Positions 3,151 through 30,930 of a stretch of DNA of 34,736 nt are shown here, one piece after another. Positions within the stretch are counted from its first letter, which is position 1. Every line of letters begins with the position of its first letter. The notes below the pieces were generated by a model. It was not told where the DNA came from and did not search any database. It saw only the letters and a list, made by a program, of their open reading frames with translations. The DNA lies in the NCBI GenBank assembly GCA_017554455.1, contig JAFZIH010000021.1, positions 1 through 34,736 on the forward strand, read 5' to 3'. The position numbers were made by a program, and so were the translations under genes. Source of the stretch: Clostridia bacterium. Lineage in GTDB: Bacteria > Bacillota > Clostridia > Christensenellales > CAG-138.

Positions 3151-3189
3151 CAAAATATCGCCGCTAACGATAACCGTCGGCGGCGATAT
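3151..3189 (-). terminator. Terminator at the 3' end of tRNA-Ser
   Basis: Minus strand ATATCGCCGC (3180-3189), 15-nt loop, GCGGCGATAT (3155-3164), then TTTTG. The first arm touches the tRNA CCA end. Confidence 0.75.
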
Positions 3190-3280
3190 GGCGCAGAGAG
3201 AGGGATTCGAACCCTCGATACCATTCCTGGTATACACGATTTCCAGTCGTGCGCCTTAGACCAAGCTCAGCCATCTCTGC
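3189..3280 (-). tRNA. tRNA-Ser(GGA), intact copy
   Basis: Acceptor GCAGAGA pairs with TCTCTGC; discriminator G and CCA are encoded at the 3' end. The anticodon loop CTGGAAA gives GGA (reads UCC/UCU). There is a long variable arm typical of tRNA-Ser and a T-arm GAGGGTTCGAATCCCTC. Its 5' half (3236-3280) is the integration target of the element to its right, so everything upstream of 3281 on the minus strand is element DNA. Confidence 0.96.
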
Positions 3281-3281
3281 A
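3236..3281. repeat. Left attachment site (46-bp core, inside intact tRNA-Ser)
   Basis: 46 bp identical to 8112-8157. It spans the acceptor 5' strand through the anticodon loop of tRNA-Ser plus one base. Identity stops at both edges (3235 C vs 8111 T; 3282 C vs 8158 A). Confidence 0.9.
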
Positions 3282-3364
3282 CGTGCATCTCAAATCCTTA
3301 GATAATTAGGCACTTCTGCGGTTTCTCTTGTGCTGTCCTCGTGTTCGTATGTCTCTACATCACC

Positions 3365-3400
3365 ACACGATTTCCTTTTTTCTTTAGTGCACACGATTTC
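3365..3400. promoter_or_regulatory. Left-end integrase arm-type sites (two ACACGATTTC copies)
   Basis: ACACGATTTCC at 3365-3375 and ACACGATTTC at 3391-3400, in the same orientation as the core copy at 3234-3244. Direct repeats near the ends of a tyrosine-integrase element are usually binding sites of the integrase N-terminal domain. Confidence 0.5.
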
Positions 3401-3436
3401 ATGCGCCAATTTATCTACTTTTGATTTGCATTGTGC

Positions 3437-3465
3437 ATTATAACGCAATCTTAACAGATTGTCAA
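3437..3465 (-). promoter_or_regulatory. Consensus promoter at the element left end, reading into tRNA-Ser
   Basis: Perfect TTGACA (3460-3465), 17-bp spacer, TATAAT (3437-3442) on the minus strand. No supported gene lies between it and tRNA-Ser 150 bp downstream, so it probably replaces the promoter that integration cut off. Confidence 0.75.
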
Positions 3466-3676
3466 CAAGAATTATCATCTATTTTCAAAGCATTTGCGCC
3501 TTATTTCGATTTAGGTATAGAGTTATACTACCAAAGCTAAAAATACGTAAATTTGCGCTTCTGACGCGCTTAAAACATATAATTCTTTATCCCCCTACCG
3601 AAAAACATATTTTTATATCTAAAAATAATCAAATCTGAACTGTTAGAATATTATGAATTATCAGAAATAAAGAATA

Positions 3677-3691
3677 GGGGTTAGATACCCC
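3677..3691 (-). terminator. Weak hairpin at the end of the serine recombinase gene
   Basis: Minus strand GGGGT-ATCTA-ACCCC followed by TATTCTTTATTT, overlapping the stop codon. Short stem and broken T-run. The rest of 3479-3676 is AT-rich with nothing else I can support. Confidence 0.35.
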
Positions 3692-4358
3692 CATTCAATT
3701 CTTTTTTATATTTATAGTATGTATTGCGTGATATGTCGATTAGTTTCATACATTCATCATCTGAAAGATTACCGTCAAATGATTTTGAATACTTCTTTAT
3801 CATATCCATCTTCTTTTGTTTACTCTTTACCGTATATGTTGAACCTTTCGCGCGTCCGATCTGCTTACCATTTAACCGCGCCGTCTCTATACCTTCCTTT
3901 GTCCTGTCATGCAAGTCTTTTACTTCCTTTTCCGCTTGTTCAAAGGCAATTTTGATTTGTTCGCGCGCAAGTGCCATTAGATACTTATTCACACCTTCAA
4001 GAATGAAGTCAACATTTCCACCAGTCAGTTTAACACTATTGCTAATTGCGCTTTTATAGACCTCTGTGTTTATATGCGGTTCTTTTATAAAGACAAGATT
4101 GACGCCTTTATTAAATAATTCTTCGTATGATGTAAACCCATCTTCCGCGCTTCTGCTCATTCTTGAAACACTATCAAAAATAATAATATCTTGCGCCTTT
4201 ACTTTGCTAATTAGTTTATTCCACTCTTTACGGTTCATACTTGTGCCAGTATATTCTTCTGTTACAATAACGGCACTATTACAATATTGTTTAATGTTTC
4301 TAATCTGTCTTTCGATAGATTGTTTCTTAGTGCTTATTCTTGCATACCCGTAAATCAT
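3681..4358 (-). CDS. Serine recombinase of the resolvase/invertase family
   Basis: Small serine recombinase, 225 aa, that would cut and rejoin DNA through a phosphoserine link (multimer resolution or inversion). The N-terminus MIYGYARIST carries the catalytic serine at residue 9; DSVSRMSRS supplies the conserved arginines near residue 65. Then come the long E-helix and a C-terminal helix-turn-helix region (LSDDECMKLIDISRNTYYKYK). The ATG at 4358 has AAAGGAG 8 nt upstream; an ATG eight codons earlier lacks a good site. It contains no TAG and stops with TAA. It is driven by a perfect consensus promoter. Having a second recombinase beside the tyrosine integrase is unusual for an element this small. 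Confidence 0.88.
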   Translation of the reverse strand: MIYGYARISTKKQSIERQIRNIKQYCNSAVIVTEEYTGTSMNRKEWNKLISKVKAQDIIIFDSVSRMSRSAEDGFTSYEELFNKGVNLVFIKEPHINTEVYKSAISNSVKLTGGNVDFILEGVNKYLMALAREQIKIAFEQAEKEVKDLHDRTKEGIETARLNGKQIGRAKGSTYTVKSKQKKMDMIKKYSKSFDGNLSDDECMKLIDISRNTYYKYKKELNGGI

Positions 4359-4411
4359 TGTTTTATCTCCTTTCAATATCATCTTTGACGTTCGTTATAT
4401 TTGATACTTGT

Positions 4412-4440
4412 ATTATATCATCATATTACATATATGTCAA
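4412..4440 (-). promoter_or_regulatory. Consensus promoter of the serine recombinase, with operator-like repeats
   Basis: TTGACA (4435-4440), 17-bp spacer, TATAAT (4412-4417) on the minus strand. Nearby are two GTATCAAAT copies and the palindrome TCAAATTTGA (4468-4477), possible repressor sites, perhaps for the small HTH protein of the element. Confidence 0.7.
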
Positions 4441-4589
4441 CATAAATTTAATACTTTATAATGATATGTCAAATTTGATACTAAAATGATATAGTGTGAT
4501 ATTGAAATATTTACATTAGAATAGAAAGTAAAGAATAGTATTCTTTTATTATATATGTCCTCTCATTACGTTTTACTTATACTATATGG

Positions 4590-4642
4590 AAAAGGGCGTG
4601 CTAATGTCGTAACTAATAAAACGATTTTTAGCGCGCTCTTTT
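4590..4642. terminator. Bidirectional terminator-like hairpin after the recoded operon
   Basis: AAAAGGGCGTGCTAA (4590-4604) pairs with TTAGCGCGCTCTTTT (4628-4642), 13 of 15 positions, with an inner TCGT/ACGA pairing. It ends in TTTT in both directions and lies 30 bp after the stop of the last recoded gene. The AT-rich rest of 4383-4671 holds only the recombinase promoter. Confidence 0.55.
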
Positions 4643-4671
4643 CTTTTATCTTTTCTTTTGCCTGTGGTGCA

Positions 4672-5031
4672 TCACTTAATCTTTATGTTATGTATCTCAT
4701 TCATTAAAACATTAACAAGAGTATCACTAATATATTTCTATGTCTTACTATCGTAAAATATATCTTTGCAACCATCAATCCCTATTCTAACAATACTGTT
4801 TATATCTTTTGTTAGAACGCCGTGTAACTATGAAATCATATTTTGCCATACTCGCGCGCCGTATTCTTCAATCATCTGCGGCACGATCTTCTATATTGTC
4901 TGTTCTGCTATCTCCTATGCTTCACGATGATGCTGATCGGCTCTACCGCCGTGACCGTCCTGTGTTCGTCTCCATCCTGTAACATGACCGCTATCGTCAA
5001 AAGTATATCCGCTACCGTTTCTTACATACAT
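4672..5031 (-). CDS. TAG-recoded protein of unknown function (119 aa; four in-frame TAG)
   Basis: Minus-strand frame from the ATG at 5031 to TGA at 4672-4674. In-frame TAG falls at codons 39, 47, 68 and 98; no internal TAA or TGA. Read as Gln they give REAQEIAEQTIQKIVPQM, MISQLHGV and SKTQKYISDT, which look like continuous helical protein. The gene starts inside the end of the upstream HTH gene (10-nt overlap) with GAGAGGT 9 nt before the ATG, so it is translationally coupled. It also uses five CAG/CAA Gln codons. The N-terminus is glycine- and charge-rich (residues 1-36); the rest is predicted helical. I do not recognise the family. Confidence 0.78.
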
Positions 5032-5225
5032 AGGTTATATACCTCTCTATAATTCTCTTTAACAAATAGAATAAACTAAACACATTTATTCTATGGTATT
5101 TTTCCGTTTCTATAATTCGTTATTGTCTATTTAGATACACCGAATTTATACGCTATTTCTTCATCTTTAATTCCGTGTAGTTTTAACTGTTCAATCATCT
5201 TTATAATTACTTGTTTATTATCCAT
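5022..5225 (-). CDS. TAG-recoded small helix-turn-helix protein (67 aa; three in-frame TAG)
   Basis: ATG at 5225 with AGAGG 11 nt upstream, TAA at 5022. TAG occurs at codons 33, 45 and 50. The segment DEEIAYKFGVSK-TAG-TITNYRNGKIP (residues 21-44) is a Cro/C1-type helix-turn-helix. In that family the position after VS-x is very often Gln (S-x-Q-T-I), so TAG = Gln fits exactly where a conserved Gln is expected. Likely a DNA-binding regulator of the element; candidate operators lie before the serine recombinase and in 6061-6195. Middle gene of the recoded operon. Confidence 0.83.
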
Positions 5226-5245
5226 AATATTATTTACCTCTTTTG

Positions 5246-5262
5246 TTTGATATGGGCGGCGC
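5246..5262. repeat. 17-bp direct repeat, copy 1 (copy 2 at 8073-8089)
   Basis: TTTGATATGGGCGGCGC occurs identically at 5246-5262 and 8073-8089; a related GAACGGCGGCGCGTATTG lies near 6102. The first copy is between two recoded genes and the second 22 bp inside the right attachment site. Could be a protein-binding or replication repeat. Confidence 0.45.
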
Positions 5263-5337
5263 GTATGTTTTAGGAAATAGGCATTTTATACGAAAATAAA
5301 AGGCGCGCCCCGCATACATACGCTATTTGAAATGATT

Positions 5338-6027
5338 TTATAATCCTAATTTGCGCGCAATTTCTTTTCTTCTTGCTTCTTCATTCTTTGATATATCAAA
5401 TGTATTTTCATCTATTTCTTCTTGCTTCATTATGTCCGAAAAGTCAAAAGCAATTTGTTTCTTTTTACTCGGCGCGGGTTTATATTGTAACTATACAATA
5501 CTATCATTTTCTAACTGCGCGGTCTACCGCGCATGCGCAGTTAGAAAATTATCTGCTTCTTTCTAATTCTAAATATCAATATCTTTATCTATATACTGGT
5601 TTATTTTCTTTTCTTTCTCGGTTTCCGTTTGCGTTTCTTTTTGGTTTTTGGTTTTTGGTTTATCTTTGTATTCTGCCCATCTTGTCTATATTGTTGTTTT
5701 ACTTGCGCCGACAATGTTTCCTATTTCTTCGTTTGTTTTGCCTTGCGCTTTTAATGCCGCAACCTTTTCCATATCAATATCAAGGCGCGGTCTGCCGCCT
5801 TTGCTTCCATTCTCGGCGGCTGTCTCATATTTACGCTATGCCGCTTTTATATTCGGTAATATTGAACCTTTTATAATACCACTTACTAATTTATCTTCTG
5901 TTTTCATTTCTCTGCCTATACCTATTTCTTTTATCTACCAAAGCAATTCCTTTGCCTATTCTAAAGGTAATGCAGAAAGAGTTTCCTCCCACGATCCATA
6001 AAAAACAAAACTTTTATATTCCTCCAT
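5338..6027 (-). CDS. TAG-recoded DUF6291-like protein (229 aa; eight in-frame TAG)
   Basis: ATG at 6027 (MEEYKSFVFYGSW) with TAGGAG about 11 nt upstream, TAA at 5338. In-frame TAG occurs at codons 24, 31, 64, 114, 153, 155, 168 and 179, with no TAA or TGA. With Gln the N-terminus reads PLEQAKELLWQIKEIGIG and IKAAQRKYETAAENGSKGGRP. This resembles the DUF6291 domain of phage and mobile-element proteins, where a helical repeat leads into a Tyr-Glu-x-Gly and Lys-Gly-Gly-Arg-Pro motif. A helix-turn-helix follows (TNEEIGNIVGASKTTI, residues 98-113), then a lysine/glutamate/glutamine-rich linker and a C-terminal REIARKLGL-like helix. Probably DNA-binding, perhaps in replication or control. Eight other Gln are CAA/CAG. 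Confidence 0.82.
5506..5549. repeat. Perfect 15-bp inverted repeat inside the recoded DUF6291-like gene
   Basis: ATTTTCTAACTGCGC (5506-5520) and GCGCAGTTAGAAAAT (5535-5549) enclose 14 nt. A competing perfect hairpin GCGCGG-TCTA-CCGCGC lies at 5517-5532. On the coding strand TAG codon 168 falls in the loop. Far stronger than the surrounding AT-rich DNA could form by chance. Confidence 0.6.
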
Positions 6028-6110
6028 ATTGTTTTACACTCCTATTGCCCTAAATTTGATTTTTGTTGAATTTAGAAATATAATTATAATAGGGCATATA
6101 TGAACGGCGG

Positions 6111-6195
6111 CGCGTATTGTTTCGTTCTTCACTTTTACTCTGAACATATTACATATTCATTGTTTCCATACATTGAACGAAACAAGGAACGCGCT
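6111..6195. repeat. Inverted repeat in the divergent intergenic region of the element
   Basis: TTGTTTCGTTC (6117-6127) and GAACGAAACAA (6175-6185) are exact complements 47 nt apart, extended outward by CGCGT/ACGCG. The region 6028-6370 between the leftward recoded operon and the rightward 75-aa gene contains this, a TATAAT at about 6085 on the minus strand and the promoter at 6253-6281. It may be an operator, a leader hairpin or an origin-like structure. No tRNA is visible. Confidence 0.5.
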
Positions 6196-6252
6196 CACCA
6201 TTCATTTATAAGTGATACTTGTTTTATCATACTCTATAAATTTGGGAAAAAT

Positions 6253-6281
6253 TTGAAAAATTACAAAATTTATGGTATCAT
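6253..6281 (+). promoter_or_regulatory. Promoter of the 75-aa gene
   Basis: TTGAAA (6253-6258), 17-bp spacer, TATCAT (6276-6281), about 90 bp upstream of the start. Confidence 0.6.
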
Positions 6282-6370
6282 ATTATTATGATGAAAAATA
6301 CCTTGCATTTTGATTTTTGTTGTGATATATTAAAAAAGTAAAATTTATACAGAAAGGAAATTAAAGGATT

Positions 6371-6598
6371 ATGGCAATTCAAATTAAATCTGTCAGAAGT
6401 ATCACAAAGGAATTTATGCACGATTACATTGAAAACGAAATGCCGAAAGATAAGAAATGGTTTTATTCTGTCGCTTTCCCCGATGGTAAGTTTAATTATC
6501 AAGAAGCGCGCAAAGCATTTATTAACAGATACGCGCCTGAACTTGCACCAAAGAAAAAAACCGACGCTAAAACACTTTTCGCGGGATGGGATAAATAA
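6371..6598 (+). CDS. Small basic protein of unknown function (75 aa)
   Basis: Only plus-strand gene of the element. The ATG at 6371 follows AAAGGATT with a second GAAAGG upstream; stop TAA; no TAG codons. The sequence is charged and mixed helical (ITKEFMHDYIENEMPKD, then KWFYSVAFPDGKF and a lysine-rich tail ending LFAGWDK). No signal peptide, membrane segment or known motif is visible. Size, position between regulator genes and integrase, and basic tail would suit an excisionase-like or control protein, but nothing in the sequence proves that. Confidence 0.7.
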   Translation: MAIQIKSVRSITKEFMHDYIENEMPKDKKWFYSVAFPDGKFNYQEARKAFINRYAPELAPKKKTDAKTLFAGWDK

Positions 6599-6612
6599 AG
6601 AGTTTATCGAAA

Positions 6613-6632
6613 GGGCGGCTTCAATGCCGCCC
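6613..6632. terminator. Convergent hairpin between the 75-aa gene and the integrase
   Basis: GGGCGGC-TTCAAT-GCCGCCC lies between two converging genes; T-rich on the plus side (ATTATCATTCTTTT), CCCTTT on the minus side. Confidence 0.55.
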
Positions 6633-6636
6633 ATTA

Positions 6637-7896
6637 TCATTCTTTTCTTGCCTTAATCTTCTTACCCGATTTCGTTTTTGTATTCGATAATACCGAATAT
6701 TTCTCGGCTTTCTCTTTTATATCGGACGCATACAGATTAGCATAATGTTGAACCATCTTATTTGACGATTGACCTAACATTTGCTGTAATGATACTATAT
6801 CGCCGCCGTCCATAATCCATTTTTTAGCATAAGTATGTCTAAATAAATGAATTGATGTTTTATTAACTCCTCGACTCTTATTATATGTAGCAATCGCGCG
6901 CTTTAATGCGTTATCTGTCATTTGATTTCCATACTGTGTAACAAATAGATATTCATCGTCTTTGGTATATCCATCTTCATCCGTTCTGAAAAGATATATA
7001 TACTCTCTAAGAATAGAAATCATCTTTTTAACAAGTGAAATTCTATTAACTTTTCCGTTCTTTTGAACATTGATATTAATATATCCTTCTTCTAAGTCCA
7101 CATCTCCGACCTTTATATTAATGATTGTTTGTATTCTATTTCCTGTAGCAAATAAATAGGCAACAATAACCCAATTTCTATACTCTGTGAAATCATCAGT
7201 TTTCGGTTTCTTTAATAGTTTCTCTTTTTCCTTTTCCGTATAACATTCTTTGATCGGCGCGGGTTTATCTTTGATTACAATTCGATACGGTTCAATCCAA
7301 CCGTTTTCCATACAGTAATACATAATCGCGCGGAAATCGCGTAAATAACTTGTTATAGTTTGTTCACTTACTTTTTCAAATACAGAAAGATACTTGATAA
7401 AATGCATTTGAATATCGTTAGTTTCCAATACTGCAATGGGTAATTGCCTACCTATATATTCTCTCGGATTTTCAATATTCGGGTATGCTTCTATAAATTT
7501 TTCTATATCGTTTTCATCTAATGTATCAAAAACAACAAATTCATATAATTTCTTGAATGTTTGTTTATAATGCTTAATAGTATATGCGCTATTACGGCGC
7601 GCAACCTGTTCATTAATAAATAATGTTTCTAATTGAAACATTTTAGTATTATGCTTTTCAATAAAATCGCGCCTTGTTCTATGGATAACGAATTTAGGGA
7701 TGTTTTTATAATCTCTGCTGTTTGCGTTTTCAATTATCTCTTTTGTTGATATGTCGGATGTAACAACAAATTCGGGGGAATATGTTGTTACTTGAATAGG
7801 ATTATTTATATCGGGTTCTTGCGGTATGTCTATTCTTGAAATTATATCGGGATTGTTCTTATTTACTACAACAAAAGAATTATCTTTTTTCTCCAT
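6637..7896 (-). CDS. int: Tyrosine recombinase / integrase
   Basis: Site-specific recombinase that would insert and excise the element at tRNA-Ser; 419 aa. The N-terminal part (to about 110) suits an arm-binding domain, followed by a SAM-like core-binding domain (about 120-215). The catalytic domain shows Arg in ATGNRIQT, Lys in the VQKNGK hairpin, His-x-x-Arg in HLFRHTYAK and the nucleophile in VQHYANLY. The second catalytic His is Gln here (LGQSS instead of LGHSS), a substitution seen in active relatives. Uses only standard codons and stops with TGA. It sits beside the right attachment site and reads inward; its promoter overlaps a candidate arm site, suggesting self-repression. Confidence 0.94.
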   Translation of the reverse strand: MEKKDNSFVVVNKNNPDIISRIDIPQEPDINNPIQVTTYSPEFVVTSDISTKEIIENANSRDYKNIPKFVIHRTRRDFIEKHNTKMFQLETLFINEQVARRNSAYTIKHYKQTFKKLYEFVVFDTLDENDIEKFIEAYPNIENPREYIGRQLPIAVLETNDIQMHFIKYLSVFEKVSEQTITSYLRDFRAIMYYCMENGWIEPYRIVIKDKPAPIKECYTEKEKEKLLKKPKTDDFTEYRNWVIVAYLFATGNRIQTIINIKVGDVDLEEGYININVQKNGKVNRISLVKKMISILREYIYLFRTDEDGYTKDDEYLFVTQYGNQMTDNALKRAIATYNKSRGVNKTSIHLFRHTYAKKWIMDGGDIVSLQQMLGQSSNKMVQHYANLYASDIKEKAEKYSVLSNTKTKSGKKIKARKE

Positions 7897-7922
7897 AGCA
7901 CAAAAAGCCCCTTTTTCTTTAT

Positions 7923-7951
7923 ATGATAATGCAAAGATACACGATTGTCAA
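7923..7951 (-). promoter_or_regulatory. Integrase promoter overlapping an arm-type site
   Basis: TTGACA (7946-7951), 17-bp spacer, TATCAT (7923-7928). The spacer contains the ACACGATT repeat at 7939-7946, so integrase bound there would block RNA polymerase. Confidence 0.7.
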
Positions 7952-7997
7952 CACTTTATAGCAACACGATTTCCGTTTTACAATAGTATACACGATT
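7939..7997. promoter_or_regulatory. Right-end integrase arm-type sites (three ACACGATT copies)
   Basis: ACACGATT at 7939-7946, ACACGATTTCC at 7964-7974 and ACACGATT at 7990-7997, all in the same orientation, about 25 bp apart. Confidence 0.5.
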
Positions 7998-8034
7998 ATG
8001 CATAATAGATATTGTATGCATTTCAAAAGCAAGA

Positions 8035-8059
8035 GAACCGCCCTATTTATGGGCGGTTC
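8035..8059. terminator. Hairpin just inside the right attachment site
   Basis: GAACCGCCC-TATTTAT-GGGCGGTTC, a perfect 9-bp stem. No long T-run. On the minus strand it would be met by transcripts entering from the stranded tRNA-Ser promoter at 8178-8206, so it may insulate the element. Confidence 0.45.
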
Positions 8060-8072
8060 AAGGTTATATAAT

Positions 8073-8089
8073 TTTGATATGGGCGGCGC
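8073..8089. repeat. 17-bp direct repeat, copy 2
   Basis: Identical to 5246-5262 (TTTGATATGGGCGGCGC). It lies between the hairpin and the right attachment core. Confidence 0.45.
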
Positions 8090-8111
8090 AAGATATTCAA
8101 TATACATAACT

Positions 8112-8157
8112 ACGATTTCCAGTCGTGCGCCTTAGACCAAGCTCAGCCATCTCTGCA
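8112..8157 (-). repeat. Right attachment site: orphan 5' half of tRNA-Ser
   Basis: 46 bp identical to 3236-3281, ending in the anticodon loop, so no functional tRNA can be made. It marks the far end of the element; chromosomal sequence resumes at 8158. Confidence 0.9.
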
Positions 8158-24252: not shown

Positions 24253-25893
24253 TCAATCCGGCTGTTTGATGTTCTGTATCTCGGAAACATCGCATTGACC
24301 GCTTTCGTTGTTTCCTTCCGCGTAAAGCGTACCGTCGCTTTTCAGACCGACCGCGTGATATCCGCCCGCTGCGATCTCGGTCACCTGCGTCCAGTCGAGT
24401 GACGGGAACGGAACGTCGATTTCCTGACAGCCGCAGACGCGCACTTCGCCGCCCGCCGTCAGACCGACCGTGTAGCCGCCGCCTGCCGCAATGGAAACCA
24501 TATCGGTCCAATCGGTCACATCGCACTGTCCGTACGCGTTTTTACCCGTCGCGACGACCGTGCCGTCTTCGAGAATCGCAACCGTGTGCGCCCAGCCGGC
24601 GCTGATCATTACGACGTTATGCCACTCTGAAACGTTGCATTGCCCGTCCTCGTTTTCGCCGGTCGCGACGACTGTACCGTCCTTCTTCAATCCGACCGAA
24701 TGATGACCGCCCGCTGCGACTGCAACGAGGTCCGTCCATTCGGTCACGTCGCACTGTCCGTAATCGTTCGATCCGCATGCGACGCAGGTCCCGTCTGCGC
24801 GCAGACCGATCGTATGACGGTCACAAGCCGATACGGCGATCAGGTCTTTCCAATCATCTCCGGTCACTTCACACTGTCCGTATTGATTATTGCCTTTCGC
24901 GAGGACAGTCCCGTCCTTCTTTAATCCGACGGTATAATAATACCCTGCTGAAATCGAAACGATATCCTTCCAGTCGTCCAGATCGCATTGCCCATTCGTG
25001 TTGTGTCCGATGCCGCGAAGCGTTCCGTCCTCCTGTATCATGATCGTGTGATAGCGTCCCGCGCTCAATGTGACGTGCTTTTGCGTCTGCGCCGTAAAGG
25101 GCGTCGGTTCCGGCTCGGGCGTCGGTTCCGGTTCGGGCGTCGTCGGATTTTCGGTCTCGGTCGATCCTGCACTTTCCGGCGTTTCGGTCTCTGTCGATAC
25201 CGGTTCTGTCGGCTGTTGCGTCACTGCAGACGTTTCGATCGGCGTCTGATTCTTCCGTCCTTTTCCGAGCAGAATGACAACCGCGATCAATGCCGAAAGA
25301 AGAACGACGCTTCCGACAACCACCGGGATCAGCGGGAATTTTCCGGCCTTTTTTTCGGGTTTCTGCACGGGTTTCCGTTCGGGTTTCTGTACGGGCTTCC
25401 GTTCTGGATTCTGTACGGGTTTCTGCGTTTCCTCACGCACGGGTGCACGTTCCGGTTCCTGCGGCTGAACGGGCTCAGCGGGCTTGTTGACCGAGTACCT
25501 TCCGAGATACTTCTGGATGTCGATGATCATGCGGGAAAGCATGCCGTCGAAGTCGGCGTACGCCATGTATTGCTGAACGTTGCTCAGATAGAAGCGGTAT
25601 TCGCCCGTCAGCGGCGTATTCTCGATGATGAAAGGCATGATCCGCTTTTTTTCGTTGATCGCGATATCGACTTCCTTTGAGACCCAAACAGACGACATCG
25701 AAGCTTTTGAGATCAGAACGATAAAAACCTCCGCGTTATGGATCGCGTTTGGTATCTGCTGCGCGTAGCTCTGTCCGCCCTGGATGCAGTCCGGTGCGAT
25801 CCAGCATGCGACGCCGGCGTTTTCAAGACGTCTGCGCAGCAAATCCGCGGTATTGTATTCTGATGAATGATAGCTGATAAATACGTCGTGCAC
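24253..25893 (-). CDS. TIR domain / transmembrane / RCC1-repeat protein
   Basis: 546 aa from GTG at 25893, six bases after GGAGGTG; upstream ATG frames have poorer sites. Residues 1-130 are a TIR domain (HDVFISYHSSE, the C-terminal SSVWVSKEVDIAI with Glu74 at the position of the NADase catalytic Glu, and MPFII). Residues 137-184 are a repetitive Pro/Lys/Gln linker; 187-210 one membrane helix; then a Thr/Pro/Glu spacer. Residues about 280-546 are seven RCC1-type blades with the repeated pattern AAG-HTVGL-DGTV-A-G-N-GQCDV. The TIR is therefore cytoplasmic and the propeller outside. It could signal, degrade NAD, or bind surface ligands; no function is proven. Last gene of the plsC-gltS-ywaF unit. 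Confidence 0.88.
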   Translation of the reverse strand: MHDVFISYHSSEYNTADLLRRRLENAGVACWIAPDCIQGGQSYAQQIPNAIHNAEVFIVLISKASMSSVWVSKEVDIAINEKKRIMPFIIENTPLTGEYRFYLSNVQQYMAYADFDGMLSRMIIDIQKYLGRYSVNKPAEPVQPQEPERAPVREETQKPVQNPERKPVQKPERKPVQKPEKKAGKFPLIPVVVGSVVLLSALIAVVILLGKGRKNQTPIETSAVTQQPTEPVSTETETPESAGSTETENPTTPEPEPTPEPEPTPFTAQTQKHVTLSAGRYHTIMIQEDGTLRGIGHNTNGQCDLDDWKDIVSISAGYYYTVGLKKDGTVLAKGNNQYGQCEVTGDDWKDLIAVSACDRHTIGLRADGTCVACGSNDYGQCDVTEWTDLVAVAAGGHHSVGLKKDGTVVATGENEDGQCNVSEWHNVVMISAGWAHTVAILEDGTVVATGKNAYGQCDVTDWTDMVSIAAGGGYTVGLTAGGEVRVCGCQEIDVPFPSLDWTQVTEIAAGGYHAVGLKSDGTLYAEGNNESGQCDVSEIQNIKQPD

Positions 25894-25958
25894 CGCCGAC
25901 ACCTCCATATAATCTATATACAGCTTACCATAATCGATTGTGTTCCGCAATCATTTTT

Positions 25959-30740: not shown

Positions 30741-30750
30741 ATATCCCGAG

Positions 30751-30930
30751 AAAATCCCGCCGTGCCGTCCGCTTTGGGGTGATAATACCCGCCACTCGGC
30801 AGGTGGGTACACTGCGGAGCCCGCAATCTTCCCGTCGAAGCGGGCTTGATTTTAGGTCGACCGACGCGTGCTTTCCCGTAATCACTCTGTGGGTTTATCA
30901 CATAAAACGTAACGCACACCGCAGGATTTT
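30751..30930 (-). ncRNA. Candidate 6S RNA (long closed hairpin of 180 nt)
   Basis: The two ends pair: minus-strand AAAATCCTGCGGTG (30930-30917) with CACGGCGGGATTTT (30764-30751), 12 of 14 pairs plus one G-U. Then come a symmetric internal bubble of 14-15 nt per side and a second stem, GTGATAAACCC (30901-30891) with GGGTATTATCAC (30790-30779, one bulge). The apical part contains AGCCCGC/GCGGGCT. Length and rod shape with a central bubble are those of 6S RNA, which binds sigma-A RNA polymerase. It sits between two tRNAs in one transcript. The family assignment is by architecture only. Confidence 0.5.

Follow-up and report, generated by a model that had tools for sequence, protein, structure and literature searches.

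A plasmid-like integrative element of a Clostridia bacterium with a three-gene operon in which TAG appears to be read as sense

Recoding of stop codons is known from phages. Translation table 15 is the predicted code of 715 phage genomes (PMC11210395), and metaproteomics has verified the use of this code in two crAss-like phages (PMC9523058). Code-15 phages of gut viromes carry Sup-CTA tRNAs (PMC11210395, PMC9523058), although such a tRNA is detectable in 52% of the predicted code-15 phages and not in the remaining 48% (PMC11210395), so that about half of them have a detectable suppressor tRNA of their own. Divergent suppressor tRNAs have also been noted in work on the zeta crAss phages (PMC12386605). 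For phages, recoding has been proposed to hold back late genes for as long as the suppressor tRNA has not yet been produced, and in one model the hosts of recoded phages are Bacillota (PMC10879173). A search of the literature, confined for the most part to journals outside subscription, found no recoded satellite, plasmid or integrative element.

The stretch of DNA analyzed here, referred to as the window, comprises positions 1 to 34,736 (34,736 nt) of contig JAFZIH010000021.1, from the metagenome-assembled genome (MAG) of a Clostridia bacterium (GCA_017554455.1). Most host genes of the window terminate at TGA or TAA, and one at TAG. The window also encodes a protein (24253-25950, minus strand) which by eye appears to combine an N-terminal TIR-type domain with RCC1-like repeats after it and is a possible signaling or defence protein, as well as a 6S RNA (SsrS; 30750-30930, minus strand) flanked by tRNA-Val and tRNA-Gln genes.

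Within the window lies a complete integrative element with intact ends, which has a GC content of approximately 0.33 compared to approximately 0.55 for the host (Table 1). It possesses a tyrosine integrase and is bounded by exact direct repeats at a tRNA gene. The TTGATACTTGT repeat that overlaps the promoter match of the resolvase recurs near position 6212, between the divergent promoters, and is a candidate operator. What the two ends share is the tRNA-Ser 5′ half, and because of this the intact gene is now transcribed from the element side. This use of a tRNA 5′ half as the attachment site, with the element's own -35/-10 match in front of the reconstituted gene (3189-3465), is the reverse of the commoner attachment at the 3′ end of a tRNA gene.

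Table 1. Features of the integrative element and of the tRNA gene at which it is inserted (positions are those of the window).
Feature	Position	Strand	Details
Integrative element	3236..8157		4,876 bp repeat-to-repeat
Intact tRNA-Ser(GGA) gene	3280-3189	-	
Attachment-site copy	3236..3281	-	46-nt direct repeat; 5′ half of intact tRNA-Ser(GGA)
Candidate integrase arm sites	3365..3401	+	two ACACGATT repeats, 26 bp apart
Promoter match into reconstituted tRNA-Ser	3437..3465	-	perfect TTGACA-17-TATAAT match within element
Serine recombinase (plasmid-type resolvase)	3681..4382	-	233 aa, no in-frame TAG
Promoter match before resolvase	4412..4440	-	perfect TTGACA-17-TATAAT match; overlaps TTGATACTTGT repeat
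TAG gene 3 (rare family, N-terminal DGHGGR..HH motif)	4672..5031	-	119 codons, 4 in-frame TAG, ATG start, stop TGA
TAG gene 2 (small HTH protein)	5022..5225	-	67 codons, 3 in-frame TAG, ATG start, stop TAA
TAG gene 1 (DUF6291 + HTH protein)	5338..6027	-	229 codons, 8 in-frame TAG, ATG start, stop TAA
75-aa ORF, divergent from TAG genes	6371..6598	+	no TAG
Tyrosine integrase	6637..7896	-	419 aa, no in-frame TAG; Phage_integrase E 1e-24
Candidate integrase arm sites	7939..8000	+	three ACACGATT repeats, 25-26 bp apart
Second attachment-site copy	8112..8157	-	46/46 identical; truncated tRNA-Ser 5′ half at other element end

The most fitting description of the element is that of a plasmid-like integrative element. 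Its resolvase is of the plasmid type, as expected of an integrated plasmid, and shares 66-67% identity with the resolvases of plasmids pRGI00071 and pRGI00069 (a rat-gut origin being read from the plasmid names, with the records stating an uncultured bacterium) and 54-59% with those of Clostridia plasmids (related plasmids being pTVTCOM2 and pRUMAL03). Domain searches of the element proteins identified no relaxase or known Rep family, with gene 1 as a candidate only. The first-pass annotation, made from the sequence before this analysis, had the element belong to, or derive from, a lineage of recoded gut phages, an interpretation that is not upheld. No phage structural, packaging or lysis domains were detected in any element protein, the element DNA had no match among 50,697 phage records, and the only trace in those records was a weak DUF6291 match in two Riemerella phages. 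Scans of IMG/VR with gene 1, gene 3, the integrase, two alignments and a TAG-containing gene of a related element (L065, see below) also returned no relatives. By these tests the element is not a phage, and a phage origin is not supported, the nearest kin of the resolvase being found on plasmids.

The cargo of the element is formed by three minus-strand genes with in-frame TAG codons. Each ATG is preceded by a purine-rich, ribosome-binding-like stretch, in agreement with the ribosome binding sites described in the first-pass annotation, and a recount returned the same coordinates, ATG starts, terminal stops and TAG counts, along with 15 CAA/CAG codons in the three genes. There is a 10-nt overlap between genes 2 and 3, and all three genes are presumably co-transcribed as an operon. 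Across their 415 codons there are 15 in-frame TAGs and no internal TAA or TGA, so that TAG stands in frame as sense while TAA and TGA terminate, as in code 15. Given the local frequencies of stop triplets on the minus strand (174 TAA, 79 TAG, 89 TGA), the probability that all 15 in-frame stops would be TAG is 2.8e-10. Frameshifts are likewise absent, and the earlier statement that the frames do not have the appearance of random decay is borne out. The off-frames are rich in both TAA and TGA, an example being frame +2 of gene 1 with nine of each.

In 2,000 Markov shuffles of the element, no frame as long and as TAG-rich as gene 1 was produced, while frames like gene 3 arose 0.02 times and frames like gene 2 0.4 times per element. 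Gene 2 by itself is therefore not significant, and the case for it rests on its company and on a weak HTH similarity. With the TAG-free genes of the element as the reference for codon usage, the gene frame was the best of the six for each TAG gene, clearly so for genes 1 and 3 and marginally for gene 2. The distribution of TAG is also uneven, as all 15 lie within these 415 of the element's 1,142 codons (P 2.2e-7), with none in the 727 codons of the integrase, resolvase and 75-aa ORF. The table-11 ORF list has only off-frame ORFs here, consistent with the earlier remark that standard gene callers would leave the region as non-coding, and the TAG-interrupted genes of such elements would be missed in general.

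For genes 1 and 3, protein similarity continues through the TAG codons. When these were translated, gene 1 matched DUF6291 above the cut-off (E 9e-11) over residues 6-81, a region spanning three TAGs. With X at the TAG positions, its residues 2-113 align in tblastn to a gene of L056, a locus in a genome of the same order (37%, E 8e-13). Gene 2 has a match to HTH_3 that is below the curated cut-off (E 4e-4), and gene 3 aligns to three homologues across all four of its TAGs. DUF6291 genes are present in 49 of 297 genomes of the order and only the copy in the window is interrupted by TAG. There is also a second DUF6291 gene in the same host genome (L124; contig C89, 36987-37172), and as this is without TAG, the host lineage also carries standard-code relatives.

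The family of gene 3 is very rare, being found in four Clostridia genomes including the source genome (up to 396 genomes per search). Its AlphaFold model is mostly helical and of low confidence (pLDDT 64), too weak for a fold search. DNA and protein searches with genes 1 and 3 against phages and plasmids gave nothing useful. Matches of gene 1 in the PDB to pentatricopeptide and designed-repeat proteins were discarded as repeat artefacts, and a degenerate DNA pattern for the DGHGGRA motif had 41 matches, all by chance and with no real relative among them. Replication or control is the probable role of gene 1 (DUF6291 and HTH) and gene 2 (HTH), and the cargo operon as a whole probably functions in replication or regulation. 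Gene 1 also contains a strong hairpin (5503-5552, minus strand), an inverted repeat with a 15-bp stem whose apex region includes a TAG codon (z -3.7). It may represent a site for protein binding or an origin-like structure within the coding sequence.

Sibling elements were identified in other Clostridia MAGs. L056 (1-3766), which adjoins a tmRNA gene, has the same gene order as the element, with a DUF6291 gene, a divergent small ORF and an integrase. Its DUF6291 gene has no TAG, and its small ORF is a weak relative, in the same position, of the 75-aa ORF (32% over 72 aa, E 0.005 pairwise). The homologues of gene 3 differ in their use of TAG. That of L057/L064 has none, in L058/L066 TAG is the terminal stop, and in L065 there is one in-frame TAG. 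L065 (1-2662) is from a Clostridia MAG of water-deer cecum, sits beside a tRNA-Arg gene and is cut off by the contig end. Its gene 3 homologue adjoins another gene which also has one in-frame TAG, while its first gene (48-605) has none. This second TAG-interrupted element supports the reading of TAG as sense, two TAGs being few. In L058 the gene 3 homologue adjoins a replication-initiator-like gene (phrog_270, E 1e-6), and L057 looks like a remnant. Recoding in the gene 3 family is accordingly patchy, as only two of its four members have in-frame TAGs and L058 ends at one.

On the frame statistics, the homology, the intact ends and the evidence of L065, it is very likely that TAG is read as a sense codon in genes 1-3, and this part of the first-pass claim of TAG-to-glutamine recoding is well supported. 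Glutamine as the residue, however, was not demonstrated, and the accompanying statement that TAG sits where Gln suits best proved wrong for most of the columns that could be tested. In the three homologues of gene 3, the four TAG columns hold R, R, R; R, Y, K; R, R, D; and K, K, R, with 10 of 12 residues basic (Arg or Lys) and no Gln. As a comparison, the columns of gene 3's own Gln residues are 27% basic and those of its own Lys/Arg residues approximately 30%. The TAG columns of gene 1 have L, A, K and R in its closest homologue, again without Gln. Only gene 2 agrees with the earlier expectation, column 33 in its HTH being mostly Gln in a sample that is biased, as the query carried Q.

A tree-based likelihood for the four gene 3 columns against background gave +6.9 ln units for Arg, +3.6 for Lys and +0.1 for Gln. 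The profile score pooled over 15 columns, several of them poorly aligned, was +5.4 bits for Arg, +5.0 for Lys and -6.5 for Gln. The result is driven by four columns and three homologues, with many of the columns of genes 1 and 2 being poorly aligned. By our own estimate, a hand-weighted tally with one vote per column reduces the preference for Arg or Lys to no more than several-fold. Gln and Lys are the residues with which amber suppressors of many origins are charged, which makes Lys biochemically reasonable at TAG. Precedent and the HTH column of gene 2 favour Gln, which we consider the probable residue; Lys or Arg, which fits one protein family better, is possible but appreciably less likely. 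The residue also matters for the question of whether all natural reassignments of TAG in mobile elements of the gut are to Gln.

No TAG-reading tRNA was found in the element with ARAGORN and Rfam, including with permissive settings; the permissive ARAGORN hits were noise, with no CTA anticodon in the bacterial tRNA mode. The host MAG (2.29 Mb, 88% complete) has 45 tRNAs with a broad anticodon set, among which the anticodons CTA, TTA and TCA are absent, and thus no Sup-CTA tRNA was detected alongside the TAG genes in the element or in this set. There was also none among the tRNAs examined in the genome of L065, where several weaker hits were left out, and no candidate helper that could supply a suppressor tRNA was found. 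Since 48% of the predicted code-15 phages have no detectable Sup-CTA, the absence of this tRNA is weak evidence. It would mean that the tRNA is supplied in trans, that it lies in unrecovered sequence, or that the operon is stranded.

For the element as a whole, we propose a plasmid-like integrative element whose TAG-containing cargo operon depends on a suppressor tRNA provided in trans and which otherwise stays quietly integrated, an explanation to which we give an even chance. For an element that has since been stranded, this dependence would lie in the past. The tyrosine integrase would insert the element into the 5′ half of tRNA-Ser in a Clostridia-type gut bacterium of standard code. It is accompanied by the plasmid-type serine resolvase, and as the recombination genes have no TAG, they could be produced in the host at any time. 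The cargo operon (the DUF6291/HTH protein, the small HTH protein and the rare helical protein) would have its 15 TAGs read as an amino acid, and be translated only once a suppressor tRNA arrives, for example from a TAG-recoded phage or a co-resident mobile element. With no TAG-reading tRNA in the element or the recovered host genome, translation would appear to depend on an outside suppressor tRNA. Such a supply in trans is judged from absence and is about evenly balanced. The delay logic proposed for phages would here act across two elements.

The most serious rival to this proposal is that the operon evolved with TAG as a sense codon and was recently parted from its tRNA, leaving intact frames that are silent. 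The lack of a TAG-reading tRNA in the element or MAG agrees with this, as do the patchy recoding of the gene 3 family and the remnant-like state of L057. Against it, the 415 codons have acquired no frameshift, TAA or TGA, and the element retains intact attachment sites, arm-like repeats, promoters and recombinases. As there are no close copies in which selection could be measured, a recently stranded element would look alike, and we hold this explanation to be unlikely but a real contender.

Somewhat less likely again is that the host itself has a TAG-reading tRNA, either within the 12% that the MAG lacks or with a sequence so divergent as to escape recognition, for example in another prophage, with the operon then being constitutive or prophage-induced. 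The incomplete MAG leaves room for this, and both the many code-15 phages without a detectable Sup-CTA (PMC11210395) and the divergent suppressors (PMC12386605) provide precedents, but none of the 45 tRNAs with their broad anticodon set reads stops and one host gene in the window still terminates at TAG. A version of our main proposal in which TAG is Lys or Arg, the element has no tRNA of its own and the foreign code locks the cargo until an amber suppressor tRNA comes from a phage or a second element in the cell, is improbable.

Ordinary decay or non-coding DNA, with the TAGs as true stops in dead genes, is strongly disfavoured and very improbable. The ORFs are short, their relatives are rare and gene 2 alone is within chance, but the exclusive occurrence of TAG without frameshifts, and the homology and codon bias continuing past it, oppose such a reading. 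Finally, TAG as pyrrolysine, a lysine derivative that would suit the basic residues at the gene 3 columns, is rejected, given that PylS in the host MAG reaches 18.8 bits versus a cut-off of 178, indicating no pyrrolysyl-tRNA synthetase, and that no tRNA-Pyl is present in the element or among the host tRNAs.

A complete non-phage element of 4.9 kb with standard-code recombination genes, TAG-dense cargo and no tRNA of its own would extend recoding to minimal mobile elements, and would suggest that the genetic code could serve as a dependence or sensing device between mobile elements. Plasmids pRGI00071 and pRGI00069, like the element, have a small HTH gene. Unlike the element, they and the related Clostridia plasmids show no TAG recoding, and they have no match to its three TAG genes or integrase.

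The code-15 gut phages, crAss-like and others, resemble the element in their dense in-frame TAG with TAA and TGA as stops (PMC9523058, PMC11210395, PMC10607447) and in their standard-code gut hosts. The TAG-free recombinase genes beside TAG-rich ones are also similar to the split between always-on and late genes proposed for these phages. The element differs from them in its size, in having a plasmid-type resolvase, and in having neither structural or packaging genes nor a suppressor tRNA; Gln is moreover not established as its decoded residue.

With PICI-like phage satellites, the element shares its small size, its integration at a tRNA gene, its combination of integrase and regulators, and a possible dependence on a co-infecting phage. 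In contrast to these satellites, no primase, terminase, capsid-remodelling or packaging gene was found in it, nor were genes that hijack the packaging or capsid assembly of a helper found among its proteins. The dependence of the element on a helper, unlike that of the PICI-like satellites, would instead act through the genetic code.
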